From a virus, in IMG/VR virus record IMGVR_UViG_3300009154_000372, positions 1-20,096 of that record: a stretch of 20,096 bases of DNA; one strand, 5' to 3'. Of this stretch, positions 1,969 to 18,787 are shown one piece after another. The notes beneath the pieces were generated by a model that was not told the DNA's origin, searched no databases, and saw nothing but the letters and a program-made list of their open reading frames with translations. Position numbers and translations under genes: made by a program. Each line of letters begins with the position of its first letter. The stretch's first letter is position 1.

Positions 1969-4089
1969 ATGCTCAAGAAACTGACTTTAAAGGCGGGGGT
2001 TAACCGTGAAAACACTCGGTACACAAACGAGAACGGTTACTATGTCTCCGATAAGGTTCGGTTTCGTCAGGGCACGCCAGAGAAGATAGGCGGCTGGACA
2101 CGCATCTCAGACAATACATTCCTTGGAACGTGTCGATCTCTCTGGAATTGGATCAATCTTGGTGGGGCTAACTTTCTTGGCCTTGGAACAAACTTGAAGT
2201 TTTACATTGAATATGGCGGCGTATACAACGACATCACGCCCATTCGCGCCACCTCCACAATTAACAACAATCCGTTTGTAGCCACGCTAGGTTCTTCAAC
2301 CATAACGGTTACTGACACGGCGCATGGTGGAGTTACAGGCGACTTTGTAACTTTCAGTGGCGCTACGGGCTTGGGTGGAAACATCACGGCCACTGTTTTA
2401 AATGCTCAATATCAAATCACCGTAATAAGCGCGGACAGCTATACGTTTACAGCTACGGCTACAGCTACTGCGGCTGACGTTTTAGGTTCTCCCGGAGGTG
2501 GTGCGGCCGTTGTTGCAGCCTACCAAATCAATGTCGGCGCTGATTCATCCACTCTGGCGTTTGGTTGGGGCGGTGGTGGCTGGGGTTCTGGTACATGGGG
2601 TTATGGAACATCAACTGCCGTGCCTATCCGCCTATGGAGCCAAATGAACTTTGGTGAAGACTTGGTTTTTGGCCCGCGTCAAGGCCCAATTTACTACTGG
2701 TCAAACTCTTCTGGATTAACTGCTCGTGGTGTTTTGCTTTCCAGCACTGGCGGTTCTGTTACGTTTACTAACGCCAGCCCTACAGTAGTTACTGCAACTA
2801 CCACATTTACCGCCGGTACAACGCTTCAGTTTGCTGCTACTACTTCATTGCCCGCAGGCATCACAGCCTTAACAACTTACTACGTTACCAACGTAAGCGG
2901 TTTAACTTTTAAACTGACAGATAGCGCGGGCACGTTAATCAACACTACCTCTACGGGTACGGGGGTGTATATCTCTAATATCGTAGATGTGCCAATTTCT
3001 CAAAACTACCTTTTAGTGTCTGACGCCTCCCGGTTTATCTTTGCTTTCGGTGTAAATGATTACGGTAGCGCAACACAAAATCAAATGTTGTTGCGTTGGT
3101 CGGATCAGGAAAACCCAATTCAATGGACTCCCGCCGCAACCAATCAGGCCGGCAGTTTGCTGTTATCTCACGGCTCACAGATCATTACAGCCTTGCAAAC
3201 ACGGCAGGAAATACTGGTTTTTACCGATTCAAGTTTGTATTCGCTCCAATACGCAGGGCCGCCTGTAGTGTGGGGCTCCCAGTTGCTAGCTGATAACATA
3301 TCTATTGCAAGCGAAAATGCTGCCGCAGTAGCGTCTGGCGTTTGTTATTGGATGGGCATAGACAAGTTTTACAAATACGATGGCCGCACCCAAACCTTGC
3401 GTTGCGATTTGCGTCAATACATTTACAACGATATAAACCTTAATCAATCTGCTCAATTTTTTGCCAGCACTAACGAAGGCTTCAATGAGGTCTGGTTTTT
3501 TTATTGTTCAGCAGCCTCCAGTACCATTGATCGCTACGTCATCTATAACTATTTTGAAAACAACGGTGACGGCGTATGGTATTACGGAAACATGGTTAGA
3601 ACCGCGTGGCTTGATTCTGGCCTAAGAAACTACCCAATGGCCGCAACAGGCATAAACAATATTGTAAATCACGAAAGTGGCGTAGACGATAACGCTACCG
3701 CTACTACCGTTGCCATCAACGCCATTATTGAAACGTCTGAGTTTGACATTGATGACGGCGACAGTTTTGGTTTTGTACGCCGCATTCTTCCTGATATTAC
3801 GTTTTCGGGGTCTAATGGAGTTAACACCCCACAAGTCACAATGACGTTAATTCCCATGCAAAACTCCGGTTCTGGGGCTAATAACCCACAGTCTGTCGGC
3901 GGAGAGAGTTACGCCAGCATTGCACGAATTGCTACAGCCCCCATTGAGGAGTTCACAGGGCAGGTATTTATCCGTGTGCGCGGGCGTCAGATGATCCTCA
4001 AAATTGAGTCTAACCAGATTGGTACGCAGTGGCAGCTTGGCTCCCCCCGTATTGACATTCGCCAAGATGGGCGTCGAGGTAACTCATGA
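1969..4089 (+). CDS. Large tail protein, probable nozzle or hub-like protein
   Basis: This 706-aa protein begins with a conserved block (residues 8-50: GVNRENTRYTNENGYY, then DKVRFRQGTPEKIGGW) that I associate with podovirus tail or DNA-stabilising proteins. By style it is closest to the P22 gp10/T7 gp12 functional class, but the exact family is uncertain. Two Ser/Thr/Val-rich beta-sandwich-like modules appear inserted at about residues 104-174 and 257-334. Between them is a Trp/Gly motif near residues 197-212 (FGWGGGGWGSGTWGYG). The rest alternates beta-strand-like segments, which could form a propeller around the DNA channel. It starts 8 nt after the endolysin, with only a weak AAGG upstream, and overlaps the next gene by four bases. 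It could instead be a different tail-fibre or baseplate-like protein. Confidence 0.88.
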   Translation: MLKKLTLKAGVNRENTRYTNENGYYVSDKVRFRQGTPEKIGGWTRISDNTFLGTCRSLWNWINLGGANFLGLGTNLKFYIEYGGVYNDITPIRATSTINNNPFVATLGSSTITVTDTAHGGVTGDFVTFSGATGLGGNITATVLNAQYQITVISADSYTFTATATATAADVLGSPGGGAAVVAAYQINVGADSSTLAFGWGGGGWGSGTWGYGTSTAVPIRLWSQMNFGEDLVFGPRQGPIYYWSNSSGLTARGVLLSSTGGSVTFTNASPTVVTATTTFTAGTTLQFAATTSLPAGITALTTYYVTNVSGLTFKLTDSAGTLINTTSTGTGVYISNIVDVPISQNYLLVSDASRFIFAFGVNDYGSATQNQMLLRWSDQENPIQWTPAATNQAGSLLLSHGSQIITALQTRQEILVFTDSSLYSLQYAGPPVVWGSQLLADNISIASENAAAVASGVCYWMGIDKFYKYDGRTQTLRCDLRQYIYNDINLNQSAQFFASTNEGFNEVWFFYCSAASSTIDRYVIYNYFENNGDGVWYYGNMVRTAWLDSGLRNYPMAATGINNIVNHESGVDDNATATTVAINAIIETSEFDIDDGDSFGFVRRILPDITFSGSNGVNTPQVTMTLIPMQNSGSGANNPQSVGGESYASIARIATAPIEEFTGQVFIRVRGRQMILKIESNQIGTQWQLGSPRIDIRQDGRRGNS

Positions 4090-4341: not shown

Positions 4342-7300
4342 ATGGAACCACTATCAAGCAACTTGCTGCCAGACGACACACAACCACAGCCGTCTGCTGC
4401 GTATCAGTGGGCCATGAGTCCAGATGGCGGCGGCTTGGATGCCATGTACCGCAGCATTGCTCAGTTTGCTTCTACAAATCCCGATGAAGCTGCTATTGCC
4501 CAAGCTCAAGCTCAATTTGGCGTAAGCCCTACAGACTATCAAAATGCTTTGGCATGGGCTGCTCAACAGAACCCCGGGCAAGTTGAGGCGGCCCCAACAA
4601 CAACACCGCCCGTTGGCCCCACTGGAACGCCGGCCGGCATTGCAACTTTGGCCTCTGCGGCACAGCAAGTAGCTGCCCCATCTACTGCTACGCCGTACTC
4701 TCCCTCGGGAATTGCAACAGTAGCTCCAGCGACCGCCAATCCCGCTCCAGTAAGCCCACCAGCCGTTGCTGCGCCCACCGGAATTGCAACAGTAGCTCCA
4801 GAGGTAATGTACAAGGCGGCTTCTGTAGAAGCCCCGCCAGTTGGCCCACCCGGGCCCGCCCCAGTAAGCCCGCCAACCGTTACCACGCCGCAGATACAAG
4901 CCAGTTATACAGCTTTAAAAGGTACAAACGATGATTTGTTAATCTGGGTTGCTCAACAAGTATCCAAGGGCGCAACCATAGACCAGTTGTCTGCAGTCTC
5001 TGGGTACAAACCAGAAGAGCTAAAGCCGGTTATAGAAAAAGCTGTTGGCACTTTTGGCGATGGCAACATTACCAAAGAGGAAAAAGACTTTATTGACTGG
5101 AAGATGGCCCAGTCAAATCAAACTGGTGGCGGCACTCAAGCGGATGTGTTTGCCAGACAAGGCATTCAAAATATATATACAGACCCAACTCTTCGCGCTC
5201 AAGCCAAAGAACAAATTGAACGATCTAATCGTCGTGAGGCCTTGGGTGTAGCTCAGGCTGATGCCGCTCCGTGGACAGACCCAAATTGGAAAACGTATTT
5301 AGGCACCAACAAAGAGGCGTACAACACTGCTAAACAAGTGCTGGCTGACCCTGCATTTGCTGCTAAATTTTCTGCGCAAACTGGATTGACTGGTGCCAAT
5401 TTAAATAACTGGGTGACTGCCGCTATGTCGCCCGCAACTCGTCAACAGCAGCAACTGGCCGCGTCTATTAATGGGCCTTTGGTAGCCGGCCCGGGCGGGA
5501 ATGATGCCTCACGTTATTCTGAATATCACGCCCCCGGAGAGGCTATAACTTCTGGCGAGAAATTCTCCAAACAATACACCAACGATGAGCTGGCGGCAGT
5601 ACGCAATGGAATGGAGACCTATCGGTACGACCCAGATTCAATGGCAAAGTTCATGACCGCATACGGCGTCACAAAAGACGATGCCGGCCTGATACTGGGC
5701 ATGTCCAAAAATGAAATGAATAAGTTTCTTGGGGCAAATAAAGACACTGTCCCAACTGCAAAATCTGACAGCGCAGGTCTTGGTTCCCTTGCCAACATCA
5801 ATCTGGGTGCGGCCAATGCGTTTGAGGCATTGGATGACAAGACTCGCAAAGATTTAACCTTGGAGTGGATGAAAACCAACGGAGTTGATTCAAAAGTCAA
5901 CGGGCAAACAAGCGAGGAATACAAGTGGACGCCCTATGTTGTTGGTGGAAGACCCGCCTCGCTTGAGCAAGGCCATGCATTAGATAAAAGCTACAGCGAC
6001 TTTGTTGCAAATTACAACAAGACGCACGATTTTCAGCCATTTAGCTTGGACAAAGCCAGTGCGTTTAATCAGTTGGACAAAGACGCGCAAAACAAAATAA
6101 CGACCGAATGGCAAAAGCAAAACGGCGTTGTTTTAATGAACAAGGATACGTCTGGCAACCCGGCGTTTACTTTGGCTAATGGAAAGGCCGTAAGGGGCGA
6201 AGACGCTGTTGGGATGCAGTCTAGTTACGACAAAATGATTGCGGACTATAACGCAACGCATAAACCAACTGTTTCACCGCAAGCCTCACCGCAATCTGGA
6301 ATTGCCAGTATTGTTGCCGCCAACGCAGCAGCTCAACAGAATAAGCCTGTAAGCCCAACCAATCCTCCAGCAGTTAGCGGTGCAACGCCATTATCTGCGC
6401 AGGATTTTTCCACTCAGTACACTGCGCTTCAAGGCAAGAAAGATGCTACGCCGCAAGAGTGGTCTACGTTTCTTGCTTCCGCACTTGCCAACCCGCAGAT
6501 CAAAACAGCATACGGCGACAAGCTGATTCCTGCGTATCAGTCACTGAACGCGCAGCAGTACACCACCTCACTGTTGACTGATCCGTATGCATCCGGCACT
6601 GATATTCAGAAACAAATTAAAACGCTGATGGATGACCCTACTTCCAAAGAGAAGTACGGCGACAAACTACAGGCAATTTACGACAAAGCAGGCACCCCGC
6701 AATCAGGTTACTACGGCGGCAAACAATACGACAGCCTGAACCCTCTGGCGGTTGACAACATTTTTAACCAGTTAAAGGCGCAGCAAAATGCTCTAGGTAC
6801 TGACAAAATAATGCAGGGCGGGGCCATAAACGGCAATGACAAAGGCTTTGGCTCAGTAGATGCGGTGACTATGGACATGGCCAAGAACTTGGCGGCGTCA
6901 GGAATTACTGACATCAAACAAGTTGGACAGGGTATGTCGTACTACCAGCAACCTGTTATATCTCGTTATGTAACCAACGATGGTATACAAGTTGAGGCAA
7001 AGGACGGCAAGTACTTTACCAATATTGTTGATCCCAACGATTCAGAAAAATATATTACAAAAGAAGTTGATCCCAAAACTGTTACCAAACAGATGGGCAT
7101 CATGACTGAACAAGCGACAGGCGATAATTCGGAATACGGAACATCTTCAATGGAGGCATTTACTCCTTTGACTGATGAACAACAGAAACAAGTTAAAACT
7201 GATGCCAAAGGCAATATAACTTTTCCTGTTCCGGGAGGCGAAGGAATCATCAACAAAGAAACTGGTCAACGTCTGGCCAGCAATTACAGCGAGCGCACCC

Positions 7301-8082
7301 AAGGCCCCATGTGGTCTGGTACTTTCAGGGGCCCCGGCAATACAGGTTACGGGGTACAGTTTGATGAAAAAACTGGCACTCCTGTGTTCTTTACTCGTGG
7401 CGCCACATCGGATGATTTAGGGCCGTTAACCACTCTTTTAAGTTTGGCATCATTTATTCCCGGCGTAGCACCTTTTGCTATGGCGGCAAACGCTGCGCTG
7501 GCTGCATCGCAAGGCAACTGGCTAGGTGCTTTGTCTAGCGGGCTTGGCGCTTTTGGCGGTGCGGGTGGTTTTGGCAACATGCTAGGCGCAAGTGCAGACA
7601 CTCTGTCCACCCTTGGCAATATTAAGAGCGGCATTGGTTTGCTTAGTGCAGTCAACAACAAGGATTGGCTGGGTGCATTGACATCTGGCTCCAGCTTAAT
7701 CCCCGGCATGAACTTGGGCGACATGAAGTTGGGCGATAACTTCAGCGTCAAAGATTTGACTGGCGGCCTGAGTGTGGCCAATGCCTTGCAGAAGGGCGAT
7801 TGGGCTGGGCTGTTGAGCATCGGCGCACAGATGTCAGGCAGCAAAGACGCCATGACGGCTGCAAACGGATTGGCTTTAATGAAAGCGGTGCAATCTGGAA
7901 ATCCTGCCGCGATGACCTCGGCTGTAGCCAAGCTGCAAAATACTCTGAGCAAACCTCCGGGTAACGCAAGGGGAGGCTTGTTACACGGGCCTGCGCCTGT
8001 TAAAGTACCACGTAATATGAACAACGTAGACCCTCGGATGTTCCAAGGGGTAGCAGCCAATCTGATGGCAAGGAGAGCTTAA
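4342..8082 (+). CDS. Very large repetitive virion-type protein, possible ejected protein
   Basis: This 1246-aa protein has no function I can recognise. Residues 1-80 are helical and include an FGVSPTDYQNAL unit. Residues 80-185 are a Pro/Ala/Thr linker with repeated GIAT units. Residues 494-562 and 575-640 are diverged copies of one domain. Residues about 715-780 hold a second duplication with YGDK at 724 and 772. The C-terminal third is Gly/Ala-rich and hydrophobic (about 1025-1200), with three W-(L/A)-G-x-L units at W1060, W1109 and W1154. It ends with ARGGLLHGP (1209-1217) and a basic tail. There is no signal peptide. Its length, position in the late operon and membrane-active-looking C-terminus suggest an internal virion protein ejected with the DNA, but this is inference. 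It starts one base after the previous stop codon with a weak ribosome site. Confidence 0.85.
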   Translation: MEPLSSNLLPDDTQPQPSAAYQWAMSPDGGGLDAMYRSIAQFASTNPDEAAIAQAQAQFGVSPTDYQNALAWAAQQNPGQVEAAPTTTPPVGPTGTPAGIATLASAAQQVAAPSTATPYSPSGIATVAPATANPAPVSPPAVAAPTGIATVAPEVMYKAASVEAPPVGPPGPAPVSPPTVTTPQIQASYTALKGTNDDLLIWVAQQVSKGATIDQLSAVSGYKPEELKPVIEKAVGTFGDGNITKEEKDFIDWKMAQSNQTGGGTQADVFARQGIQNIYTDPTLRAQAKEQIERSNRREALGVAQADAAPWTDPNWKTYLGTNKEAYNTAKQVLADPAFAAKFSAQTGLTGANLNNWVTAAMSPATRQQQQLAASINGPLVAGPGGNDASRYSEYHAPGEAITSGEKFSKQYTNDELAAVRNGMETYRYDPDSMAKFMTAYGVTKDDAGLILGMSKNEMNKFLGANKDTVPTAKSDSAGLGSLANINLGAANAFEALDDKTRKDLTLEWMKTNGVDSKVNGQTSEEYKWTPYVVGGRPASLEQGHALDKSYSDFVANYNKTHDFQPFSLDKASAFNQLDKDAQNKITTEWQKQNGVVLMNKDTSGNPAFTLANGKAVRGEDAVGMQSSYDKMIADYNATHKPTVSPQASPQSGIASIVAANAAAQQNKPVSPTNPPAVSGATPLSAQDFSTQYTALQGKKDATPQEWSTFLASALANPQIKTAYGDKLIPAYQSLNAQQYTTSLLTDPYASGTDIQKQIKTLMDDPTSKEKYGDKLQAIYDKAGTPQSGYYGGKQYDSLNPLAVDNIFNQLKAQQNALGTDKIMQGGAINGNDKGFGSVDAVTMDMAKNLAASGITDIKQVGQGMSYYQQPVISRYVTNDGIQVEAKDGKYFTNIVDPNDSEKYITKEVDPKTVTKQMGIMTEQATGDNSEYGTSSMEAFTPLTDEQQKQVKTDAKGNITFPVPGGEGIINKETGQRLASNYSERTQGPMWSGTFRGPGNTGYGVQFDEKTGTPVFFTRGATSDDLGPLTTLLSLASFIPGVAPFAMAANAALAASQGNWLGALSSGLGAFGGAGGFGNMLGASADTLSTLGNIKSGIGLLSAVNNKDWLGALTSGSSLIPGMNLGDMKLGDNFSVKDLTGGLSVANALQKGDWAGLLSIGAQMSGSKDAMTAANGLALMKAVQSGNPAAMTSAVAKLQNTLSKPPGNARGGLLHGPAPVKVPRNMNNVDPRMFQGVAANLMARRA
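4708..4801 (+). repeat. Pair of 22-bp direct repeats within the coding sequence
   Basis: Positions 4708-4729 and 4780-4801 are identical over 22 bp and spaced 72 nt apart, in the same reading frame. They encode two of the GIATVAP units of the Pro/Ala linker. Similar AGTAAGCCC-containing segments lie at about 4749-4757 and 4863-4871. The repeats probably arose by in-frame duplication of linker units. Confidence 0.85.
8070..8077 (+). promoter_or_regulatory. Strong ribosome binding site for the 543-aa protein
   Basis: AAGGAGAG ends 5 nt before the ATG at 8083 and is among the best Shine-Dalgarno matches in the late operon. It suggests strong independent initiation, although the upstream stop codon (8080-8082) directly abuts the start. 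Confidence 0.75.
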
Positions 8083-9714
8083 ATGGGTGAAGATGATTTT
8101 GACTTTAGCAATGGTGGTTTTGACGACAACATTGACTTTGGCAACCTCGATTTAGGAAACCTCGATCTAGGAAACCTTGATCTTGGTAACCTTGATCTAA
8201 GCAACCTTAATCTAGGCGATCTAAGCAACCTTGATTTGTCTGGAACCGGCCTGTCAAAAGAAGACATGGCGCTGTTAATTGGTCAGGCCAATCAGGACAT
8301 GACTGGCACGGGCGACCTGCAAGGCGGGGGTTTTAATCTGGATGACCTGCTAAGCGGTGGCGGCGATGAACAAGGCGGTAACGGTGGTGGCGCCGAAGAT
8401 TTTAATATTGATGATTTACTAGGTAGCGGAGGCGATAATTTAAATCTTGATGATTTGTTGAGCGGCGGTGGTGATGGCAAAACTCGGTCTTTGTTTGGCG
8501 CCGGCGCTGGCGGTGGTAAGCACGATGCAGACGCTTTAATTCGATCCTTAACGGGAGGCGGCGGCAATGAAGAAAGCCAGCTTAAAGATATTCTTGCCGG
8601 TTATTCCAAAGATCGTGATCCATTTGAAGGATTAAAAATATCTGGTCGCGGGCAATTGTCTGGGTTGCCAAGTGAAACGGGTACGGGTATTACAGGAGAA
8701 GGTTTTTCAAGCATCAATGATTTATTGAAATCAGGAACGCCAGAAGAAATTGCTCGTTATACCCCCGGTACCGCGGATTACGCCTTACATAGTGGCCTCG
8801 AAGGCGATCCATTTAGCTTTAAGGCTGATGCCACGCAAGGCGCAAACCTGACCAGCATGGGCGGCGGTCAAGGCCTGACTAAGTACGTTCCTGCAATGTA
8901 TACCGATGACGGCGAACTGATGTCGGGTACGGGCGGCACTTTAACTGAACTTGGCTTTATCCCAGACAAGGGTTCTCGCGTAGCTATTGGCAATCCAAAT
9001 TCTTGGATTAACAACCCCGCTAAGACTGGTGAAAAAGCTATTGTGTCGCAAGATAACGTAGTTAGAACCACTGCACCCAGTGGAGCCACTACTACAACAC
9101 CTAACAAACCTACCGTTACAACGGCAAAAGACCAAACACCCGTTACGCCCGGCAACAACCAAAGTTTAATTGACCAACTCAAAGCCTTGATTGGCGCTGG
9201 CTCTGGTTCTCAAACTCAGCAAAACGACTGGATGAAGTATCTGATGATGCTGTTGGCTTTGGACGCCATGCGCAATAAAGGTGATAGCGGCCCAGCCATC
9301 ATGAAAGGTAGTGACCGCACTCAGACTCCATACGCTGCAATTCAGCAGGCCGCAGGCTACCGTCCGGGGCAGGGCGGAATTCAGTACTTCAGCTCAGCAG
9401 CCGGCAAAGCTGCTGGCGGGGGCATTGGATCGCTGTCTAACGTTGGCTCCGTGGATGCTGCTGGTGGACGCCTGCTGCGCGGCCCCGGTGATGGCGTATC
9501 TGACAGCATTAACGCTCAGATTGGTAATAACCAACCGGCCCGTCTGGCTGATGGCGAGTATGTGCTGGACGCTCGCACTGTCGCTGAGATTGGCAACGGC
9601 TCTACAGGAGCGGGAGCTAGAAAACTCGCTGCTATGGTTTCCAGAATTGAACAAGCTCGTCGCCATGCAAAGCGCGGCAAGCCTAGTAACGCAGACCAAC
9701 ATCTCTTAGCATAA
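8083..9714 (+). CDS. Repeat-bearing virion-type protein with conserved phage C-terminal domain
   Basis: This 543-aa protein is in three parts. Residues 1-52 are very acidic and contain tandem GNLDL-type pentapeptides (20-52). Residues 84-131 contain three DDLL boxes (F84-D95, F107-D118, N119-D131) in a Gly/Asp-rich spacer. The middle is Gly/Thr-rich with no family I recognise. The C-terminus (about 440-530) has AAGGGIGSLS, then AAGGRLLRGPGDG (459-471), followed by SDSINAQIG and ARLADGEYVLDA. That last block is of a type I know from the ends of several phage structural proteins, where its role is undefined. Pentapeptide-like coils can be rigid spacers or protein-binding surfaces. A structural or ejected virion role is inferred from position. 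Its strong ribosome site suggests it may be made in high amounts. Confidence 0.86.
   Translation: MGEDDFDFSNGGFDDNIDFGNLDLGNLDLGNLDLGNLDLSNLNLGDLSNLDLSGTGLSKEDMALLIGQANQDMTGTGDLQGGGFNLDDLLSGGGDEQGGNGGGAEDFNIDDLLGSGGDNLNLDDLLSGGGDGKTRSLFGAGAGGGKHDADALIRSLTGGGGNEESQLKDILAGYSKDRDPFEGLKISGRGQLSGLPSETGTGITGEGFSSINDLLKSGTPEEIARYTPGTADYALHSGLEGDPFSFKADATQGANLTSMGGGQGLTKYVPAMYTDDGELMSGTGGTLTELGFIPDKGSRVAIGNPNSWINNPAKTGEKAIVSQDNVVRTTAPSGATTTTPNKPTVTTAKDQTPVTPGNNQSLIDQLKALIGAGSGSQTQQNDWMKYLMMLLALDAMRNKGDSGPAIMKGSDRTQTPYAAIQQAAGYRPGQGGIQYFSSAAGKAAGGGIGSLSNVGSVDAAGGRLLRGPGDGVSDSINAQIGNNQPARLADGEYVLDARTVAEIGNGSTGAGARKLAAMVSRIEQARRHAKRGKPSNADQHLLA
8140..8238 (+). repeat. 15-bp tandem repeat encoding GNLDL pentapeptides
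   Basis: From 8140, four units encode GNLDL, then SNLNL, then an interrupted GDL plus SNLDL, all in phase with the 543-aa protein. The preceding DNIDF (residues 15-19) may be a decayed first unit. The DNA copies differ mostly at third positions (for example CTC GAT TTA versus CTT GAT CTT), which suggests the peptide, not the DNA, is conserved. Confidence 0.9.
8332..8475 (+). repeat. Three DDLL-box peptide repeats
   Basis: In-frame units FNLDDLLSGGGD (8332-8367), FNIDDLLGSGGD (8401-8436) and NLNLDDLLSGGGD (8437-8475) are separated by Gly/Asp/Glu-rich linkers. The nucleotide copies have diverged in synonymous positions. Confidence 0.88.
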
Positions 9715-9720
9715 GGACGG
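9713..9720 (+). promoter_or_regulatory. Ribosome binding site for the 589-aa protein
   Basis: AAGGACGG, overlapping the stop codon of the preceding gene, lies 3 nt before the ATG at 9724. The AAGGA core has suitable spacing and supports this start. Confidence 0.6.
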
Positions 9721-9723
9721 ATC

Positions 9724-11493
9724 ATGCCTGATACCACTCCCCCAACCGGCACGACAAACACCCAAGGTTTAGCGCCGTGGGCAGCTCCGTACATTACAGA
9801 CTATTTAAGCCGCGCGCAAACTCTTGCAAATGAGCCTACGCAGGTTTATCACGGCCAATTAACTGCTGGGCCTTCTCAACTGCAAAACCAAGCCTTTGCC
9901 GGCATTGGCGGGCTAACTGTTCCAACTGGTATTGGACAGGGCGCATACGATGCAGGTCAGTATGGGCGCATGGCTGCAACTACGCAGTACCAACCTCAGA
10001 CCATGAATTTCTTGGGTCAGTCGTTTGCTCCTCAGCAGCAACCTCAGTACACGCCTCAACCGATAAGGCAGCCACCAATTGATTTTCCGCAGTACCCGCA
10101 AGATGATCCAAGCAACGGCGGGGAACCCGGCGGGATTACGGGCCTGCCGTACCGTAGGGGTGGTGCAAACCCAATGGGCGGCAGCTACGACGGTTCGGGC
10201 ATCAATCCCGGGGGAAAATATAACCAACCTACGGGTGGCATGATGCCTCCTCGTTTGGGTGGTCAGTTTGATCCTAGCGGTGGCTTTGAACCCGGCGGTT
10301 TTACTGGCGGAAAGGTTGGCATGGGCGGAGGTGGGCCAAACCCAATGGGCGGCGACATGAGTTCAATATTGCAACAAATGCAAAATTTTAAAGGTAACGC
10401 AAACGGACTTTCTAGCGATCCTTCTATGGGGGAGAGGGCAGTTCTAAACGGCGGTAACATGTCTTCTAACCAGTCAATGGGTAACGGTTCCGTGCAAAGC
10501 GTTGGCCCAAATGGCGAGATGACTGGCGGCATGCCTATGTTTGGCGGACAGACCGGCGGCCCCATGGAAAGTTTTGCGCCTATGTCGCCGCAACAATACC
10601 AAGAGCCAGAGCTTGGTCCGCCTAAAGATATGCAAAACTTTGGCGGCATGGGTCGGCCCGCTCCCGGCGCACCAAATTACAACGACACTCCAAACTACAC
10701 TCCCCCGGGCGGAGGTGGTCCTAACCCAATGACTGGGGGGCCCATGCCACCTGCGCAACCTCCTCAGCCCGCTCAATCTATTGCTCAGCAGTACATGAAT
10801 CCGTACTTGCAGGCATCGCTTGATCCCCAGTTGGCAGCAGCTAAGCGTGCGGCAGACATTCAGGCTCAAACAAACAACGCCGCAATGACTAAAGCCGGCG
10901 CGTTTGGTGGTGGGCGTCAGGCTATCTTGACTTCAGAAGGTCAGCGTAACCTTGGCGACACGATGTCCAACATCACTGGTCAGGGCTATAACACTGCATA
11001 CGACAAAGCCATGCAGCAGTTTAATGCTGACCAAGATCGCCAAATGAAAGAGGCTCAGTTTGGTACCACCTCACGTTTGCAAGGTTTGCAGACTGGCATC
11101 CAAGGTGCGCAGACTCAAGGGCAACTGGCTGATACTCAAAACAAAGCTAACATTTCAAACCTTAACACACAGATGAATGCAGGCGACGTGCAGCGTGGCA
11201 TTACATCCGAAGGCATCAAAGCCGATTACGATGAGTGGATGCGTCAGAAAGATGATCCATACAAAAAGGCTCAGTTCCAAAAAGACATGCTTGCTGGTTT
11301 ACCTGTTGGCTCGATGACCAACTCTGCTGCCGGCTTGTCTGGCATAGCAGGACTGATCTCCGCAATGGGTGGCGTAGGCGCACTGAATACCGCACTGGGT
11401 GATCCAAACAGCCCACTGGGCAAACTGTTGGGTCAATTGGGTCTGGGAACAGGAACTACTACTGGAACCGGAAATACAAATGGGGCCACATAA
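9724..11493 (+). CDS. Conserved virion-type protein with central low-complexity region
   Basis: This is a 589-aa protein. Residues 1-90 are an ordered N-terminus (APWAAPYITDYLSRAQTLAN). Residues about 95-355 are rich in Gly, Pro, Gln, Met and Asn with recurring NPM units (N149, N206, N334). Residues about 360-525 are a long helical conserved region (MNPYLQASLDPQLAAAKRAA, AGAFGGGRQAIL, AYDKAMQQFNADQDRQMKEA). The end is a Gly/Ala/Leu-rich hydrophobic stretch (about 530-589). I recognise the helical region as a type common in environmental podovirus genomes, usually unannotated and near other putative internal virion proteins. No enzymatic motif is visible. It overlaps the next gene by one base (TAATG). 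An internal-core or ejection role is inferred only. Confidence 0.87.
   Translation: MPDTTPPTGTTNTQGLAPWAAPYITDYLSRAQTLANEPTQVYHGQLTAGPSQLQNQAFAGIGGLTVPTGIGQGAYDAGQYGRMAATTQYQPQTMNFLGQSFAPQQQPQYTPQPIRQPPIDFPQYPQDDPSNGGEPGGITGLPYRRGGANPMGGSYDGSGINPGGKYNQPTGGMMPPRLGGQFDPSGGFEPGGFTGGKVGMGGGGPNPMGGDMSSILQQMQNFKGNANGLSSDPSMGERAVLNGGNMSSNQSMGNGSVQSVGPNGEMTGGMPMFGGQTGGPMESFAPMSPQQYQEPELGPPKDMQNFGGMGRPAPGAPNYNDTPNYTPPGGGGPNPMTGGPMPPAQPPQPAQSIAQQYMNPYLQASLDPQLAAAKRAADIQAQTNNAAMTKAGAFGGGRQAILTSEGQRNLGDTMSNITGQGYNTAYDKAMQQFNADQDRQMKEAQFGTTSRLQGLQTGIQGAQTQGQLADTQNKANISNLNTQMNAGDVQRGITSEGIKADYDEWMRQKDDPYKKAQFQKDMLAGLPVGSMTNSAAGLSGIAGLISAMGGVGALNTALGDPNSPLGKLLGQLGLGTGTTTGTGNTNGAT
10166..10353 (+). repeat. 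17-bp direct repeat in the low-complexity region
   Basis: CAAACCCAATGGGCGGC occurs at 10166-10182 and 10337-10353, each in frame and encoding NPMGG. A diverged third unit (NPMTGG) begins at about 10723. The repeats mark in-frame expansion of the Gly/Pro-rich centre of the 589-aa protein. Confidence 0.8.
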
Positions 11494-13001
11494 TGAGCGT
11501 TAATCTGATTCAAATCCAAGAGCGTCTCAAAGACGTTCCCATGCAGAGCGTCATGCAGTACGCTAACGGCGGAAACCCTGATGTGCCTCCGTTTATGGCG
11601 CTGTCAGAGTTAAGCCGACGTAAGCGAGTACAGCAGGATTCTCAGCAAGCTCAGGCTCCACAGGGAACGGTTAAAGACAAGATTGAGCAGGAAGCCGCTG
11701 GCATGGCAGGCATGGCTGGCCCCGGTCAAATGCCCGGCCAACAACCCGGTCAGCCTCCCGGTCAACCCCAAGGCGCTCCTCCGCAGGGCGCTCCTCAAGG
11801 TGCCCCGCAAGGCGCTCCTCAGATGGCTCCTCCACAAGCACCACCAGTTCGTGCTGCAGAAGGTGGACTGATGTCTTTGTCTGTGCCTGACTTTAAATTT
11901 GGCTCAGGCGGTATCGTTGCGTTTGCCGACAGCGGCCCTGTGGAGGGAACAGAGGTAGAAGAAGACCCATCAGAACTGGTTAGCATGAATTTAGCGGGGG
12001 ATTTAAAACGCTATAAAGACATGATGGCGAAAAAGATGGCTGAACAAGTGCCAGAAACTTTGTCTCCTTTGGCTATGGAAAAAAAGATGGCCGCAGAAGA
12101 CCCAGAACGGTACGCTATTTTGCGTGCCAAGCCGGGTGTTGAGTACATGCAAGGCATTGAGGCTCAACTGCAAGCTCGTAATTCAGAAGCAGAAAAACAA
12201 CGTGCCGAGAACGCTAAGTTGAAAGAGCTGAACACTTACGGCCTGTTGGCTAAAGCGGCCAATTCCACCCGTGGTATGACTGGTGGCGTGGGCTCACAGA
12301 TTGCACAGATGCTGGGCAGCTTTGGTCAGGGTTATGCTGGCGTAGAAGAAAAGGCTATAACCCAAGAGCAAGCTTTGCGTGACGACTTACTCAAACGTAA
12401 CGAGCTGAAGAACGCTGCACAGTTTGAAGTAGAAAAGCTGCAACGCGCTCAAGCGGACGGTGATGTCAAAGGTGAATACATTCATAGATCAAATTTGCAA
12501 AAGTTGCAGAATGCCTTGAGCGTTTCTCAGAATAGCTTGCTTAAGAGCGCAATTGATGGAGTGTATGGCGCTACTGCAAAACAGAATGCAGCCAACATTG
12601 CTGCTAAGGCCAGTATTGAACGAGAAAAAATCAAGGCTGCGTCTGACCTTGCCACTGCCAACAAACCCGATCCCGCCACGGTGATTCTTAACCGTGCTTA
12701 TGCAATGGAAAAAGAAGGAAAATTTCCTGAAGCAAAAATATTGATGGATCGTTACATTGCCTTGAAGAATGGCACGACTCCAGACATGCGCCGTGCTCAG
12801 TTGATTGAAAAGTTTACCAATGACTGGGCTAAGATCAAGCCGATGCAAATGATTGCATTAAAAGAAGCCGGCATTGATGAAGACACATGGGTGCGCAATA
12901 AAGTTAACATGGCGGAAGGCGCTGCACCTGCTGGTGGCGGCAACAACAAACCCAATGTAGACTTGCTGAAAAAGGCAGACGCAATTATCGGAGTTAAATA
13001 A
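11493..13001 (+). CDS. Conserved helical virion-type protein with GAPQ repeats
   Basis: This is a 502-aa protein. The N-terminus (residues 1-45, LIQIQERLKDVPMQSVMQYA and LSELSRRK) is a conserved opening that I recall from unannotated environmental phage proteins. Residues 76-115 are a Pro/Gln/Gly linker ending in repeated GAPQ units. AAEGGLMSLS (121-130) and SGGIVAFADSG (138-148) are short glycine motifs. From about 155 to 500 the protein is mostly charged helix, including KLKELNTYGLLAKAANSTRG near residue 240 and an Ala/Lys/Glu-rich helix near 350-390. No catalytic motif or signal peptide is seen. It joins both neighbours by TAATG overlaps (11491-11495 and 12999-13003). I infer a virion or ejection-complex role from the operon position; the function is unknown. 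Confidence 0.88.
   Translation: MSVNLIQIQERLKDVPMQSVMQYANGGNPDVPPFMALSELSRRKRVQQDSQQAQAPQGTVKDKIEQEAAGMAGMAGPGQMPGQQPGQPPGQPQGAPPQGAPQGAPQGAPQMAPPQAPPVRAAEGGLMSLSVPDFKFGSGGIVAFADSGPVEGTEVEEDPSELVSMNLAGDLKRYKDMMAKKMAEQVPETLSPLAMEKKMAAEDPERYAILRAKPGVEYMQGIEAQLQARNSEAEKQRAENAKLKELNTYGLLAKAANSTRGMTGGVGSQIAQMLGSFGQGYAGVEEKAITQEQALRDDLLKRNELKNAAQFEVEKLQRAQADGDVKGEYIHRSNLQKLQNALSVSQNSLLKSAIDGVYGATAKQNAANIAAKASIEREKIKAASDLATANKPDPATVILNRAYAMEKEGKFPEAKILMDRYIALKNGTTPDMRRAQLIEKFTNDWAKIKPMQMIALKEAGIDEDTWVRNKVNMAEGAAPAGGGNNKPNVDLLKKADAIIGVK
11718..11837 (+). repeat. Pro/Gln/Gly-rich GxPQ repeat tract
   Basis: Residues 76-115 of the 502-aa protein read as PGQ-type units followed by three consecutive GAPQ units (near residues 99-110). 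The tract looks like an extended flexible linker. The spacing is not regular enough Gly-X-Y to call it collagen-like. Confidence 0.75.
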
Positions 13002-16000
13002 TGGCAACAGCGGAACAATATGCTCAGTGGCTGGTCGATAACGAAAGTAAAAAAGGCACTTCAGAATTTGACACAGTTGCGCAAGCCTATCGTTCCGTTC
13101 GTTCGGCAGTATTGGCTCCACCAAAGCCGCCTGAAGACCCCGGGTTTTTTAGCAACATGGGCAACCTCTTGGTTCAAGGCGGTAAACAGGCTTTAGCTGC
13201 GGCCGAGATGTCTCCGTCTGTCCTCGCTGGTAATGTTGGACAAAACAAAGCAGCGTTGCTGGCCAAGCAACTGGCCGAGCCAAGCAAGCCACAGCCTGCT
13301 GAATTGCAGGAAATCAAAGGCGCTTTCAAAGATGAGGCGCAAGATTTTGAAAAAGCTCAAGGCTTTGTGCAGTCTGCCAAGGCGTTTGCTCCTATCTTGC
13401 TGGAGATTGGCAAGCAGGCGCTGACCAACCCCAAGGGCATGGCATACATGACCGCTGAGCAGGCGGCAAACATGGCTCCTTCTATGGCAGGCATGTTGGC
13501 TGGTGGCCGTACAGGCGCAATGATTGGAGCTATGGTTCCTGTGCCGGGTGCTGCACCTCTTGGTACTGCAATTGGCGCTGCTATAGGTTCGTTTGGCGGC
13601 AGCGTTCCAATGGAGGTTGGCTCTGAATTTATTGGCTTGGTAAGTAAAGAATTGGCAGCGCGTAAGTTGCCACCCACCGAGGCAAACATTTCCGACTTGT
13701 TGCGTGATACAGACTTTATGGCTACGGCCACTAAGAACGCCACTACCAAGGGCGTTACCACGGCTGGCGTAGATGCGGCACTGAACGTGGTGACTGGTGG
13801 TGCGGCTTCTGCTCCTCGCCGTGCGGCTGTTAAAGCTGCGACTGCTGAGTTGGGTGCTGCTGCAAATGCGGCCAAAATTGCAGAGCGCACTAAAGATTTG
13901 CTGGCTCAGAGAACGCTTGGTCAAAAGGTCAAGACTGGTGCAGGTGCTGTTGGTATTGAAACATTGGGCGGTGGTGCATCTGAGGCTGCTGGACAGAAGG
14001 CGGCTTACGGCAAAGTGGACATTGAAGATGTTGCACAGGAAATGCTGGGAGGCTTGGGCGGCTCTGCCTTGGAGGTGCCTGCATCTGCTTATGCAATGAC
14101 TCGGGACTTAGCTGCGGGCAAAGAAACGCCTGTCACCCCTGAGACATTTGAGACTCCGGATATACCAGAGCCTACCGACACAGCCATTCAAAAGAAAATT
14201 GCTGAGAAGACAGGGTTGACTGAAGCTCCGTCAGCACCGCCAGATATTCTGTCTTCGGAAGAGGCAAACGCTCAACGTGCAAAAATGTTGCAAGCCAAGA
14301 TAGACGCCGACATGATTGCACAGGAAGAGCGTGCTCGCCGTGAAGGCCCACGTCCTGTTGTTCCAGAAGTAACCCCTGCTGCAGATATAAGCCGACTTAA
14401 TGAGGAGCTGCCAAAGGCTACACCCAAGTCAGAGCTATTGACCAAGCAGGCGGAGATTGACCGCATGCGCCTTGAGGCTGGCTTGCCTACGGGAGAGTCA
14501 TCGTTAACGCCCGGTGTGCAGCCTGAAGTGGCCGCGCCCACGGAAGTGTTGACGCCCAAGATTGTGGACAACCGTCCATTGCAAGAAGGTGCTGCCAAGA
14601 ACCGTTTGATGGTTATGCAGAACATGCTCAAGAACGAAGGCGGTGATCCAGCCAGCTTGACCATTGTTCCTCACCCTACGGCCAAAGAAAGATTTGCCAT
14701 CCAGTCGATGGATGTGCCTGCTCGCTTTACCCCTGAGATGCAGGGCAATAAGAACGAGACTGGCCGTGTCCGTGAGACAACAGTCATTCGTGAAGATGAG
14801 GCCGGTAAACCTTTTGCCGAGACAACCGAGACGCCTGCCGGCCCCGGCATTGAGATTGATCCAATCAAAACGTACATTGATATTGCACGGCGCACCAACA
14901 CGCCAGCGTCTATGCGTTTGGTCAGAGACTTTGAATCTGGTTTGGTAACCCGTGATGATGTGCAAGCTGCGCTAGACGCAGAGAGATTGGCTGGCCGTCC
15001 ACTGCCTTTGAATTACACAAAAGCTGGTGAGCCTTGGTTCTTGGCTCCTGAGTCTTCCAAGCCCCGAGGTGAGCGTGAGCTGCCCCCGTCGTCACGGCTA
15101 ACACCGGAACCATTTGCAGGCCCAACTCGCCCCGGTGAAGTTGTCCCTCCTCAAGAGACACCTCCTCCTCAAGAGCCGCCTACGCCTCCAGAAGAAGAGC
15201 CTCCAGAGCCAACTGGCGTTATGCCGCAAAGCTTGGAAGAGTTTAAAACGAAGTTTCCCATTGAAAGAAATAGCCCTGCCATTTTGGCCGCGCACAAAGC
15301 CGGTAACTTTCGGCAACTTGCAGACGTCATGGCTGCTAGTCCAAACCCGGCTGTTAAGCGCGTGGGTGAGTTGTCTCGCGCTATTGCCGGAAAAGTTACA
15401 TTGTTAAAACCGGGGAAACAAAACGAACCTGATACATTGGGCCGTTATAGGTATATTGATGACTCCATTCAAATGGCCCCTAGAGCAGCGGCTGATGAAT
15501 GGGTAAGTGCCCACGAATCATTGCACGCATTGATAGCATTGGCACAACGAGACCCTACGCCACGGCAAAAAAACACCGTGCAAAAGATTAGCAATTTGTA
15601 TTTTTATGTTAAGCAAAATTTAAATCGTCAAGGCATTGGGTGGGGTAAAAACTCTTCTGGCAAAAAGTATCCTAGGCAAGTGTATGGTTTGGCTGACGAG
15701 CTGGAGTTCACAGCGGAAGCTATGAGCAACCCTGAATTCCAATACATGCTTATGCAAATTCCTTACGCTGGAAAGCGTAGCGCATGGACGCAGTTCACAC
15801 GTTTAGTAGCTGACTTGCTGGGCATCAAAAACACTAATGCTTTGACAGAGGTAATGAACCTAACTGACAAGCTGGCTCAGATGCCACGGTCTAAGTATGT
15901 ATTTAGCAAAAATCTAACTTCGGAAAATTCGGCAACTGAAGGTGTAACCGAAGTACCGGAAGTGGAAGAGCTGTCAATGCCATCGTTTGGCAAGAAGCCA

Positions 16001-18787
16001 GAAGCTCCTACGCCCACCGAAGTTGGCAAGCAAGCGCTTGACATCGTTAGCCAGACCGGCATGGAAGCCAAGCCGCCACCATTGACCAAGGCGCAGATTG
16101 CACAGCAAGTGATTGCCAAGGTTAAAGAAGACCCAGCCCTCTCCGCCAAGACGGCCAAGGCTGCGCTGCAACGCGCAATGGATAAGTTCGAGACATCCAT
16201 GTTCTCGGGCGATGCAGCATTTAACAATGAGATTCGTCGCAACTTGATAAAAGATTTCAAGGAAGCGCCAGAAGTTCTTGGCATGTTGTTGGAAGCCAGT
16301 CAATCGCAGGCCGTTCACTCGGATGCACTGGCTACGCAATTCATCATTGATGGTGGTATTGTTTACGATGAAGACGCCAAGAAGTGGGTGTCTATCAAGA
16401 AGGAAGACAACTTCATTAAGCTGGCTCAGAACATTGAAGCCTTGCAGAAACAGTACAACCTGACCAAAGAAGATGCTGAGCGGATTGCACACACGTACTT
16501 TGTAGCCAAGCGCTTTAACTCTTTGTTAGATAAACAAAATGAACGAGAAGCCAAGATTTCACAACTTGAGTCTCGCATTGAACAAGAGCAGCGCAATCCA
16601 AAACTAACAGACTCCCAACGCGACGCCATGCTTAAGGGTTTGCGGTCGGATATCAAAAAGCTGGAAGCTGCTAACGTATATATCTCTTCCGATCAGAAAG
16701 CAATGATTGGCCCCGGTATGAACTTAGGCAAATTGATGCCTGAGCTGGAGCAGATTAGCAACACATGGCAAGGTATCCGTGTGAACGCCATCAAGGCAAT
16801 GGTAGACGGTGGTCTGTGGAATCTGCAGACGGCCGAGGCCATGCTGGATAACATCGACTACGTGCCGTTCTACCGCGAAGAACAGCTTGAAGAAGGCCAA
16901 GGCCCACAAGAGTTCATCAAGGGACTAGAGGTTAAGGCTAAAGAGTACAAGCTCAAAGGCTCTAACTCACCAGTCAACGACGTGTTTGACAACATGGTGC
17001 GCTGGACGCAGTACGCCATCAACCGTTCTGTGCGCAACCACAAGGCTGTGCAAATGGTAGACCTTGCCACCGACATCAGCATTGGCGATGAGAAGATGGC
17101 TAAGAAGGTTGACGAGATGGACAAGGACAAGAACATTGTCCGCGTCTTCCGTGATGGCGTGCAAGAGTTGTACGAGGTCGCTGACCCGCTGTACATGGAT
17201 GCGTTTGCTGCAGTGAGCAACGTGGCTTTGCCAATGCACAAAGTGTTTACGTTCATGGCAGACTTGCTGCGCAAGACTGTGGTGTTAAACCCTCTGTTCT
17301 CGCTGGCGCAGGTTCCTGCTGACGCTTTTTCGGCCATGTTCACCTCTGGTTTGCAAACTCGTTACGCCCTGAGCATTCCTGCCCGGGCCGTCAAAGAGTT
17401 TGTAACCACACTGACCAAGACCAGCGCTACACACAACTTACTCAAGCAGTATGGTGCTGTGGGTGTGCGTGATTTCAACGCAACAATTGCCCGTGAAGAT
17501 GTAGAAATTGCGGCCGGCCTAAAGGCTCCTAAAAATCTTACTGGCAAAGTAATGGAGGGCATGAGCCATATTGCGATGGCTGCGGATAACGCAGTGCGTC
17601 AGGCCACGTATGAGGCAGCAATGGCACAGGGCTTATCCAAGTCCGAAGCAATTGAAAAAGCTTTTGAGATCATCAACTTCCGCCGCCGTGGCACCAACAA
17701 AATGGTGAACGTGCTGGGCCAGACTGTGCCGTTTTTCTATGCATACATGAGCGTGCAACGTGTAGCAATGAAGACCATCAGCGGTGTGGGAATCTCACCT
17801 ACAACGCGTGGTGAAGCAATTAAAACTTTGATATATACCTCGGGTGCTGTAACGGCACTGTCCATGCTTTATGCAATGGCTAACGGTGGCGATGAAGAAT
17901 ATGAAAAGACTCCTATCGCCATCCGGGATCGCACCTTGCACATCCCCGGCACGGTTATGCGTATTCCTTTGCGGCCAGACTTCTTCTTGTTTCCAAAGAT
18001 TGTTGGCGAACATTTGTACCACTTGATTACAGACAAAGGTTTGTCGGACGGCGCTACGTTCCGTACAGCAATGACTGATAACTTGTGGAATGCAATTGCC
18101 AGCCCACAACCTATTCCTCAAACGTTCAAGACTTTGTTTGAAGTTGGGATTAACCATGACTTCTTCCAAGGCCGTCCAATTGTTGGGGCATTTGAAGCAA
18201 AGAAAGAAGCTGAGCGCCAATTTAATGACAGCACATCCGAGCTGTCCAAATGGATTGGTCATAACATTGGTGGCTCACCCATCATGCTGGACCATGTCAT
18301 CCGTGGCATGTTTGGTTCACTGGGTGGCATAACAATGTACGCCTCCAACATGCTGATGAATAGCGATCCCGATGTAGAGCGTCCGGCCGGTACATTCCGT
18401 GACGCCATAGCGGGCTTGCCGGGTTCCTCTGGATTTATTTCCAAGGCCAACGAGTCGCGTCTGAAGAATGACTTTTACGAACTGCGTGATGCAGTGGAGA
18501 AGGCTAACGCCACGTACAAGGACATTGAAAAACGCAGCCCTCAAGGCATCGAAGAGTTCCTCAAAAACGAGAAGAACATGATGCGCTTGGGGCTGGTGGA
18601 TGATGTTGAAAGCATAACTCGTGAGTTGTCTGAAATCCGTAGCTCAATCACGCAACTGACCAACGCTCCAAAGGATGCGTTTACCAGCGAAAAAAAGCAG
18701 CAGTACATCAAAGAATTGCGAAACGTAGAAACAGAAATGCTGAAGTCTTCGCAAATCCCAGAAATGAGAAAACTTGCGCAATTGTAA
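13001..18787 (+). CDS. Giant polyvalent virion protein with metallopeptidase-like and LPD38-like domains
   Basis: This 1928-aa protein is the largest in the window. Residues 1-34 contain a conserved opening (KKGTSEFDTVAQAYRSVR). Residues about 157-215 are a hydrophobic glycine-zipper-like segment. Residues about 704-745 are a Pro/Glu linker. Residues about 800-960 resemble the zincin-like peptidases of phage polyvalent proteins: HESLH at 838-842 gives the HExxH zinc site, and ELEFTAEAMSNPEF (900-913) supplies a possible third ligand, best E902. Residues about 1110-1230 are charged coiled-coil helices. Residues about 1390-1640 (NPLFSLAQVPADAFSAMF, NFRRRGTNKMVNVLGQTVPF) look like large polyvalent-protein-associated domain LPD38. 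Such proteins are thought to be packaged and injected with the DNA. CGGAG at 12989-12993 is a moderate ribosome site. I see no toxin domain or transglycosylase motif. Confidence 0.88.
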   Translation: MATAEQYAQWLVDNESKKGTSEFDTVAQAYRSVRSAVLAPPKPPEDPGFFSNMGNLLVQGGKQALAAAEMSPSVLAGNVGQNKAALLAKQLAEPSKPQPAELQEIKGAFKDEAQDFEKAQGFVQSAKAFAPILLEIGKQALTNPKGMAYMTAEQAANMAPSMAGMLAGGRTGAMIGAMVPVPGAAPLGTAIGAAIGSFGGSVPMEVGSEFIGLVSKELAARKLPPTEANISDLLRDTDFMATATKNATTKGVTTAGVDAALNVVTGGAASAPRRAAVKAATAELGAAANAAKIAERTKDLLAQRTLGQKVKTGAGAVGIETLGGGASEAAGQKAAYGKVDIEDVAQEMLGGLGGSALEVPASAYAMTRDLAAGKETPVTPETFETPDIPEPTDTAIQKKIAEKTGLTEAPSAPPDILSSEEANAQRAKMLQAKIDADMIAQEERARREGPRPVVPEVTPAADISRLNEELPKATPKSELLTKQAEIDRMRLEAGLPTGESSLTPGVQPEVAAPTEVLTPKIVDNRPLQEGAAKNRLMVMQNMLKNEGGDPASLTIVPHPTAKERFAIQSMDVPARFTPEMQGNKNETGRVRETTVIREDEAGKPFAETTETPAGPGIEIDPIKTYIDIARRTNTPASMRLVRDFESGLVTRDDVQAALDAERLAGRPLPLNYTKAGEPWFLAPESSKPRGERELPPSSRLTPEPFAGPTRPGEVVPPQETPPPQEPPTPPEEEPPEPTGVMPQSLEEFKTKFPIERNSPAILAAHKAGNFRQLADVMAASPNPAVKRVGELSRAIAGKVTLLKPGKQNEPDTLGRYRYIDDSIQMAPRAAADEWVSAHESLHALIALAQRDPTPRQKNTVQKISNLYFYVKQNLNRQGIGWGKNSSGKKYPRQVYGLADELEFTAEAMSNPEFQYMLMQIPYAGKRSAWTQFTRLVADLLGIKNTNALTEVMNLTDKLAQMPRSKYVFSKNLTSENSATEGVTEVPEVEELSMPSFGKKPEAPTPTEVGKQALDIVSQTGMEAKPPPLTKAQIAQQVIAKVKEDPALSAKTAKAALQRAMDKFETSMFSGDAAFNNEIRRNLIKDFKEAPEVLGMLLEASQSQAVHSDALATQFIIDGGIVYDEDAKKWVSIKKEDNFIKLAQNIEALQKQYNLTKEDAERIAHTYFVAKRFNSLLDKQNEREAKISQLESRIEQEQRNPKLTDSQRDAMLKGLRSDIKKLEAANVYISSDQKAMIGPGMNLGKLMPELEQISNTWQGIRVNAIKAMVDGGLWNLQTAEAMLDNIDYVPFYREEQLEEGQGPQEFIKGLEVKAKEYKLKGSNSPVNDVFDNMVRWTQYAINRSVRNHKAVQMVDLATDISIGDEKMAKKVDEMDKDKNIVRVFRDGVQELYEVADPLYMDAFAAVSNVALPMHKVFTFMADLLRKTVVLNPLFSLAQVPADAFSAMFTSGLQTRYALSIPARAVKEFVTTLTKTSATHNLLKQYGAVGVRDFNATIAREDVEIAAGLKAPKNLTGKVMEGMSHIAMAADNAVRQATYEAAMAQGLSKSEAIEKAFEIINFRRRGTNKMVNVLGQTVPFFYAYMSVQRVAMKTISGVGISPTTRGEAIKTLIYTSGAVTALSMLYAMANGGDEEYEKTPIAIRDRTLHIPGTVMRIPLRPDFFLFPKIVGEHLYHLITDKGLSDGATFRTAMTDNLWNAIASPQPIPQTFKTLFEVGINHDFFQGRPIVGAFEAKKEAERQFNDSTSELSKWIGHNIGGSPIMLDHVIRGMFGSLGGITMYASNMLMNSDPDVERPAGTFRDAIAGLPGSSGFISKANESRLKNDFYELRDAVEKANATYKDIEKRSPQGIEEFLKNEKNMMRLGLVDDVESITRELSEIRSSITQLTNAPKDAFTSEKKQQYIKELRNVETEMLKSSQIPEMRKLAQL

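Follow-up and report, generated by a model that had tools for sequence, protein, structure and literature searches.

An acidic tandem repeat opens a putative virion-type phage protein

The GNLDL repeat near the N-terminus of a 543-residue protein from an uncultivated phage is not due to chance, and we tentatively read it as part of a flexible, multivalent docking array that would help load the protein into the virion. The window, by which we mean the whole stretch of DNA analysed, is an entire virus record of 20,096 bases, which may be a genome fragment. The features on which the analysis turns are the following.

1969..4089, + strand: 706-aa virion structural or stabilization protein (phrog_3287, E 1.3e-52)
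4342..8082, + strand: 1246-aa ORF, directly upstream of the array ORF
8083..9714, + strand: 543-aa ORF with the array, a putative virion or ejection-cluster protein
8083..8139, + strand: residues 1-19, an acidic-aromatic stretch MGEDDFDFSNGGFDDNIDF that corresponds to MDEFDFG or MGDFDFDFG at the start of relatives
8140..8238, + strand: acidic repeat array (GNLDL four times, SNLNL, a GDL insert and SNLDL), residues 20-52
8332..8367, + strand: second repeat type, copy 1, FNLDDLLSGGGD, residues 84-95, resembling FDISSLLGGGD of relatives
8401..8436, + strand: second repeat type, copy 2, FNIDDLLGSGGD, residues 107-118
8440..8475, + strand: second repeat type, copy 3, LNLDDLLSGGGD, residues 120-131
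9226..9276, + strand: hydrophobic helix DWMKYLMMLLALDAMRN, residues 382-398, with a hydrophobic segment at the same place in relatives
9463..9711, + strand: conserved C-terminal module (GGRLLRGPGDGVSDSI...LADGEYVLDARTV...), common to Caulobacter, Synechococcus and Planktothrix phages and to a DSL-LC04 protein annotated as tail tape measure protein
9724..11493, + strand: 589-aa ORF, with similarity to a protein of DSL-LC04 whose PHROG match is phrog_4287 'DNA ejection protein'
13001..18787, + strand: 1928-aa ORF, at the place of the DSL-LC04 'DNA transfer protein'

A sequence-only reading of this DNA had reported six or seven near-identical pentapeptides at 8140-8238. The tandem repeat is real and lies in frame, residues 20-52 reading GNLDLGNLDLGNLDLGNLDLSNLNLGDLSNLDL; we count six units and not seven, because the three-residue insert GDL breaks the register ahead of the last SNLDL. 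Tandem Repeats Finder delimits it as 8143-8216, with a period of 15, 4.9 copies and 84% matches. At its best lag the array matches itself at 24 of 35 residues in the best stretch, against shuffle maxima of 14 (500 shuffles of the whole protein) and 17 (2000 shuffles of residues 1-140). Pairwise comparison of the first five 15-base copies gave 18 codon differences at position 3, 12 at position 1 and none at position 2, bearing out the earlier remark that the codons have drifted while the peptide is kept. The protein is acidic, as had also been noted, and its net charge is concentrated at the N-terminus: -11 for residues 1-40, -13 for residues 1-60 and -26 for residues 1-140, compared with -1 for residues 141-543.

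The 543-aa ORF has no Pfam match (E<=1) and no PHROG match (E<=0.001), and an NCBIfam FlgM match (E 0.0057, under the cut-off) was set aside as chance or composition. In one relative (L100:256-2163), a Hint/intein-like domain lies between the array and the hydrophobic helix, at residues ~300-438 (PT-HINT E 6.5e-9; Intein_splicing E 0.0011, the latter under the cut-off).

Gene context points to an ejection cluster

The array protein most likely belongs to an ejection cluster, as judged from a phrog_4287-like neighbour, the gene order of phage DSL-LC04 and a set of fused ORFs. Upstream of the array ORF lie a GH19-family protein (Pfam E 8.8e-10), which is probably lytic, the 706-aa structural protein and ORFs of 84 and 1246 aa, and downstream of it follow ORFs of 589, 502 and 1928 aa. 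The order in DSL-LC04 is comparable: a stabilization protein, two hypotheticals, a 'tail tape measure protein', two further hypotheticals and a 'DNA transfer protein'. The C-terminus of the 543-aa protein aligns with the end of the 'tail tape measure protein' (38% over 84, E 3e-9), and the 589-aa ORF with the protein that comes next in DSL-LC04 (28% over 212, E 1e-7). That protein matches phrog_4287 'DNA ejection protein' (E 6.9e-9), as do the counterparts of the 589-aa ORF in L064, L079, L080 and MinM2 (4/4, or 5/5 with DSL-LC04). The window's own 589-aa ORF gave no PHROG match at E<=0.001; the counterparts of the 543-aa protein in L064, L079, L094, L095, L106 and MinM2 gave none at E<=0.01, and no direct similarity was found between the 1928-aa ORF and the 'DNA transfer protein'.

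Twenty-one ORFs contain the conserved regions of both the 543-aa and the 589-aa protein; in 38 other loci the two are separate. These counts take in the window (L001), two contigs that each appear under two names (L080/L089 and L086/L099) and some contigs that encode identical proteins. Where the two are separate, the second ORF starts at most 10 bases past the end of the first in 37 of the 38 loci. The fused ORFs have the C-terminal module in common, and none of them carries the array. What supports the earlier description of the 543-aa protein as virion-type is its gene context.

Several further observations concern the same cluster. The distance from the array ORF to the next ORF, taken as start minus end (9714-9724 in the window), is nearly constant, at 9-10 in 36 of the 38 unfused loci, with repeated contigs counted in. 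At L086:5620-9528 (the same contig as L099), one 1302-aa ORF takes the position of both the 1246-aa and the array protein, with the acidic motifs inside it, near residue 900 and just past an internal Met. By eye, short segments resembling PNMTEAMIARGMNEYGISPERVA turn up in different cluster proteins, namely the array-family ORFs of L004, L006 and L067 and the N-terminus of L086. The 1928-aa ORF of the window has a period-18 tandem repeat at 15149-15192, in a Pro/Glu-rich stretch, and the 4387-base contig L008 encodes a 706-aa protein 99.9% identical to that of the window.

The array is one version of an acidic N-terminus

A search of viral contigs with the window protein as sole query found no relative. 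Relatives were gathered through the neighbouring 1928-aa and 706-aa proteins (for the latter, the best 80 of at least 594 matches) and through two alignment-derived patterns, one of which, DFG[NG]LD[LA]G, lies in the array itself. From 64 hits besides L001, 8 that were identical to another member were dropped, and the remaining 56 together with the window make 57 non-redundant proteins: 40 reached through the 706-aa and 1928-aa neighbours, 16 reached through the patterns, and the window. ORF starts were set mechanically at the first ATG, GTG or TTG, and some N-termini may be off. Twenty-four chosen members served for a second alignment, a second AlphaFold run and a Pfam scan of relatives; loci L110-L122 lie outside the ORF set used for the motif, density, run-length and charge counts. 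Weak LRR, STAS and Tcp10_C matches were set aside as chance or composition. A DNA pattern for two copies of GN[LF]D[LF] matched two viral contigs, L113 and L114, whose ORFs look unrelated by eye.

What relatives share with the array is a looser core motif, Phi-D-Phi-[SG], where Phi is hydrophobic, counted in residues 1-120. At least four core motifs occur in 14 of the 57 proteins, against a shuffle expectation of 0.3-0.6; this proportion is not a frequency, since the 16 pattern-found members are enriched for the array. Relatives carry from 0 to 10 core motifs, so the copy number varies between related phages, a check that the sequence-only reading had proposed in support of its claim; L090, L102, L103 and L108 have 2 or 3 each, and the longer ORF of L086 contains 3. 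Examples of the array in relatives are MDEFDFGDMSGLDFGDFDLSGLENMDLSGLEGLDLSSLEG (L088) and MEEFDFGSLDAGEGAFDISSLLGGDSG (L092). A density of at least 3 core motifs per 100 aa was reached by 21 of 8520 mechanical ORFs, all 21 of them array-family (repeated contigs and identical proteins included), and by none of 986 shuffled ORFs of at least 150 aa.

Relatives found without the array as a search key seldom have it: L080 alone among the 40 members found via neighbour genes has at least four core motifs (1/40). The family does not need the array, since 43 of the 57 members have fewer than four. The MinM2 and DSL-LC04 counterparts show no array in their first 180 residues; a scan of genome contigs returned four relatives, with the array absent from the first 150 residues of each, L121 being a cut end; and tblastn of the L094 N-terminus against phage records gave no match, although the low-complexity filter may hide one.

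Acidity is far more widespread than the motif. Residues 1-40 have a net charge of -5 or below in 49 of the 57 array-family proteins and, on per-protein values, in 32 of the 40 found without the array as search key. The acidic N-terminus is thus the broader trait of the family, with the Phi-D-Phi array as one of its versions. Among neighbouring families, the same threshold was reached by 0/81 (706-aa), 0/34 (589-aa), 0/25 (502-aa), 0/17 (84-aa), 0/8 (1928-aa) and 0/7 (164-aa) proteins, by none in two further families of 5 members each, and by 13/35 of the 1246-aa family; this comparison leaves out any ORF that begins in the first 3 bases of a locus and assigns fused ORFs to the array family alone. 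In 21 of the 57 proteins, 10 of which are among the 40 neighbour-found members, residues 1-120 contain a significant self-repeat (at most 3 of 300 shuffles). Other acidic N-terminal repeats have unrelated motifs, such as ESVFDPTYGG twice (L045, L046) and DDELGYL three times (L052).

The N-terminus is constrained, and tolerated slippage is a rather unlikely source

Repeats of this kind could be low-complexity sequence produced by replication slippage and tolerated without a specific function. We regard this explanation as rather unlikely, although the varying copy number and spacing, and the absence of the array from many members, speak for it. In 12 pairs of relatives the pN/pS of the N-terminus was 0.15-0.52. 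The N-terminus is constrained, though more loosely than the C-terminus: the last 160 residues gave 0.07-0.25, and the N-terminal value was the higher one in 11 of the 12 pairs, as slippage would have it. These ratios carry the uncertainty of repeat alignment, and the pair L100/L105 has only 5 synonymous N-terminal differences.

Motif copies within single proteins argue the other way, with pS of 0.56-0.97 in 15 of 17 proteins and pN/pS of 0.15-0.48 in 15 of 17, the choice of copies by motif lowering pN. The exceptions, with two copies each, are L090 (pS 0.11, ratio 5.55), L108 (pS 1.23) and L103 (ratio 0.67). In the window, the five copies gave a pS of 0.68 against a pN of 0.10 (again with a downward bias of pN from picking copies by motif), in line with a peptide that is kept while its codons change. 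Persistence of an acidic N-terminus across N-termini that are unrelated in sequence is a further point against slippage.

The five-residue period is not kept by relatives

The sequence-only reading had likened the repeat to a pentapeptide-repeat protein. Its real, acidic repeat of varying copy number stands; the square coil is not supported, and the five-residue period is not kept in homologues. According to a review (PMC8145042), a pentapeptide-repeat protein has eight or more contiguous repeats. Contiguous units of the form [ASTVCG][DN][LFM] number 6 in the window, and 8 if any residue followed by [DN][LFMIV] is allowed, and the longest 5-spaced run in any other family member is 3 units. Spacings between successive motifs are mainly 5, 7, 8 and 12-15, and four 5s in a row occur only in the window.

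A short pentapeptide-repeat domain, a right-handed quadrilateral beta-helix with roughly one and a half or two coils, is very unlikely in our judgement. It would fit the 8 loosely defined units at residues 15-54, and L106 has NFSGADLSGVDLSD, which is the one Pfam Pentapeptide match among the 24 scanned members (15.3 bits, E 0.015, below the 20.2 cut-off). Its best evidence is a PDB sequence search in which the only two hits to the window protein at E<=1, weak ones at E 0.31 and 0.75, were both pentapeptide-repeat proteins. Against the coil, the window's own period is broken by the three-residue insert, and its protein has no match to Pfam Pentapeptide (PF00805) at E<=1. Structure prediction of residues 1-60, the check proposed for the coil, gave no strands there in either of two low-confidence AlphaFold models. 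The single-sequence model (mean pLDDT 43.4) has 3-residue helical turns in the repeat; the model with the 24-member alignment (mean pLDDT 47.6) has a helix at 59-70, with block means of 50-55 over residues 1-50 and 70-74 over residues 51-70. Across the two, pLDDT is ~47-55 over residues 1-50; at such low confidence the lack of strands is weak evidence and no proof of disorder. After tests by Pfam, PDB sequence search, AlphaFold, contiguous-run counts and comparison with relatives, we reject the coil as the main reading, with the two PDB hits standing against that rejection. We prefer to see in the period-5 run a looser motif that has expanded locally in tandem, and the case teaches that the period should be checked in homologues before a short run of Leu/Asp pentads is called a pentapeptide coil.

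A possible docking array for loading into the virion

Two other functions can be imagined for such a segment. In some other phages, internal proteins counteract host defences, and an acidic N-terminus that is possibly ejected with the DNA could serve as a DNA mimic or another counter-defence module; with no anti-restriction family match in Pfam, PHROGs or NCBIfam, we find this highly doubtful. The least credible reading is a Gly/Asp-rich repeat that binds calcium in the manner of RTX proteins, whose nonapeptide motif is GGxGxDxUx, since by eye no such nonapeptide period is seen and Pfam gives no match, despite GGGD runs in the second repeat type and a MinM2 protein with the same C-terminus that is annotated 'calcium-binding protein'.

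The docking array is the reading we prefer, and we hold it tentatively, as a real possibility that falls short of an expectation. The array would be the most regular part of an acidic N-terminal set of short hydrophobic-Asp motifs (Phi-D-Phi-[S/G]), one of which may have expanded in tandem to a five-residue period in the window. This N-terminus is probably flexible, to judge from the low AlphaFold confidence and from charge-hydropathy scores near the boundary (-0.09 for residues 1-60 and +0.01 for residues 15-54). The protein would be packaged in the head and later ejected with the DNA; the motifs would form a joint, multivalent docking tag, bringing it to the growing head through scaffold, coat or a partner ejection protein, and would let go later.

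Little is understood of the way in which phage heads take up their ejection proteins, and the P22 data point to N-terminal regions and the scaffolding protein: gp7 and gp20 bind procapsids via their N-terminal portions, and scaffolding protein is needed (PMC8402733). For T4 IpIII, ten residues of the N-terminus are enough to have the protein incorporated (PMC8402733). One result counts against docking, in that P22 gp7 without its first 20 residues shows little effect, with ~60% of the burst left (PMC8402733). Within our data, docking is favoured by the excess of core motifs over shuffles and their confinement at high density to this family, by the acidic N-termini and the other acidic repeats of some members, by the phrog_4287-like neighbour, by the 21 ORFs that join the conserved regions of the two proteins, and by the constrained N-terminal pN/pS. 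The array-less MinM2 and DSL-LC04 counterparts, the lack of the array in those 21 fused ORFs, the 43 members with fewer than four core motifs, the array's rarity among neighbour-found members and the missing PHROG match of the window's 589-aa ORF weigh against it.

A wider proposal, which we consider rather improbable, is that ejection-cluster proteins of these phages bear fast-changing N-terminal 'loading tags', degenerate acidic motif arrays binding by avidity, with the motif exchanged between lineages (LDLSGLEG, FDISSLLGGD, ESVFDPTYGG, DDELGYL) and only acidity and position retained. In a family whose N-terminal motifs are readable, repeated and swappable, a loading signal would become open to test. 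A literature search by title gave nothing on arrays of this kind in ejection proteins of phages, though this does not prove their absence from the literature.

Comparison with known systems

With pentapeptide-repeat proteins (PF00805; NP275-NP276, Alr5209) the window protein shares a central Leu after Asp or Asn and a five-residue period; it differs from them in having fewer than eight contiguous strict units and Gly or a large Leu at i-2, in a period that relatives do not keep, and in the lack of a Pfam match and of a predicted coil. The ejection (internal virion) proteins of P22 (gp7, gp20, gp16) and T7 (gp14, gp15, gp16) resemble it in a hydrophobic helix, a mosaic architecture and a cluster that follows a stabilization-type protein, here with an adjoining relative of a phrog_4287 protein; ejection proteins are described as mosaic and rapidly diverging (PMC8954989). 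Unlike them, the window protein has an acidic motif array and no PHROG match, and its packaging is putative; tblastn in phage records matched 7 records, P22 and T7 not among them. Proteins with the GPGDGVSDSI...DGEYV module, annotated 'tail tape measure protein' in DSL-LC04 and 'tail length tape measure protein' in Caulobacter phage GB2A, are 38-51% identical to it over ~70-84 aligned C-terminal residues; no similarity was found elsewhere, and the array is absent from the two counterparts examined (MinM2, DSL-LC04). Compared with the multivalent short-linear-motif regions of disordered proteins, the window array is putative in both its disorder and its docking, and it resembles them in its many degenerate hydrophobic-acidic cores at loose spacing.
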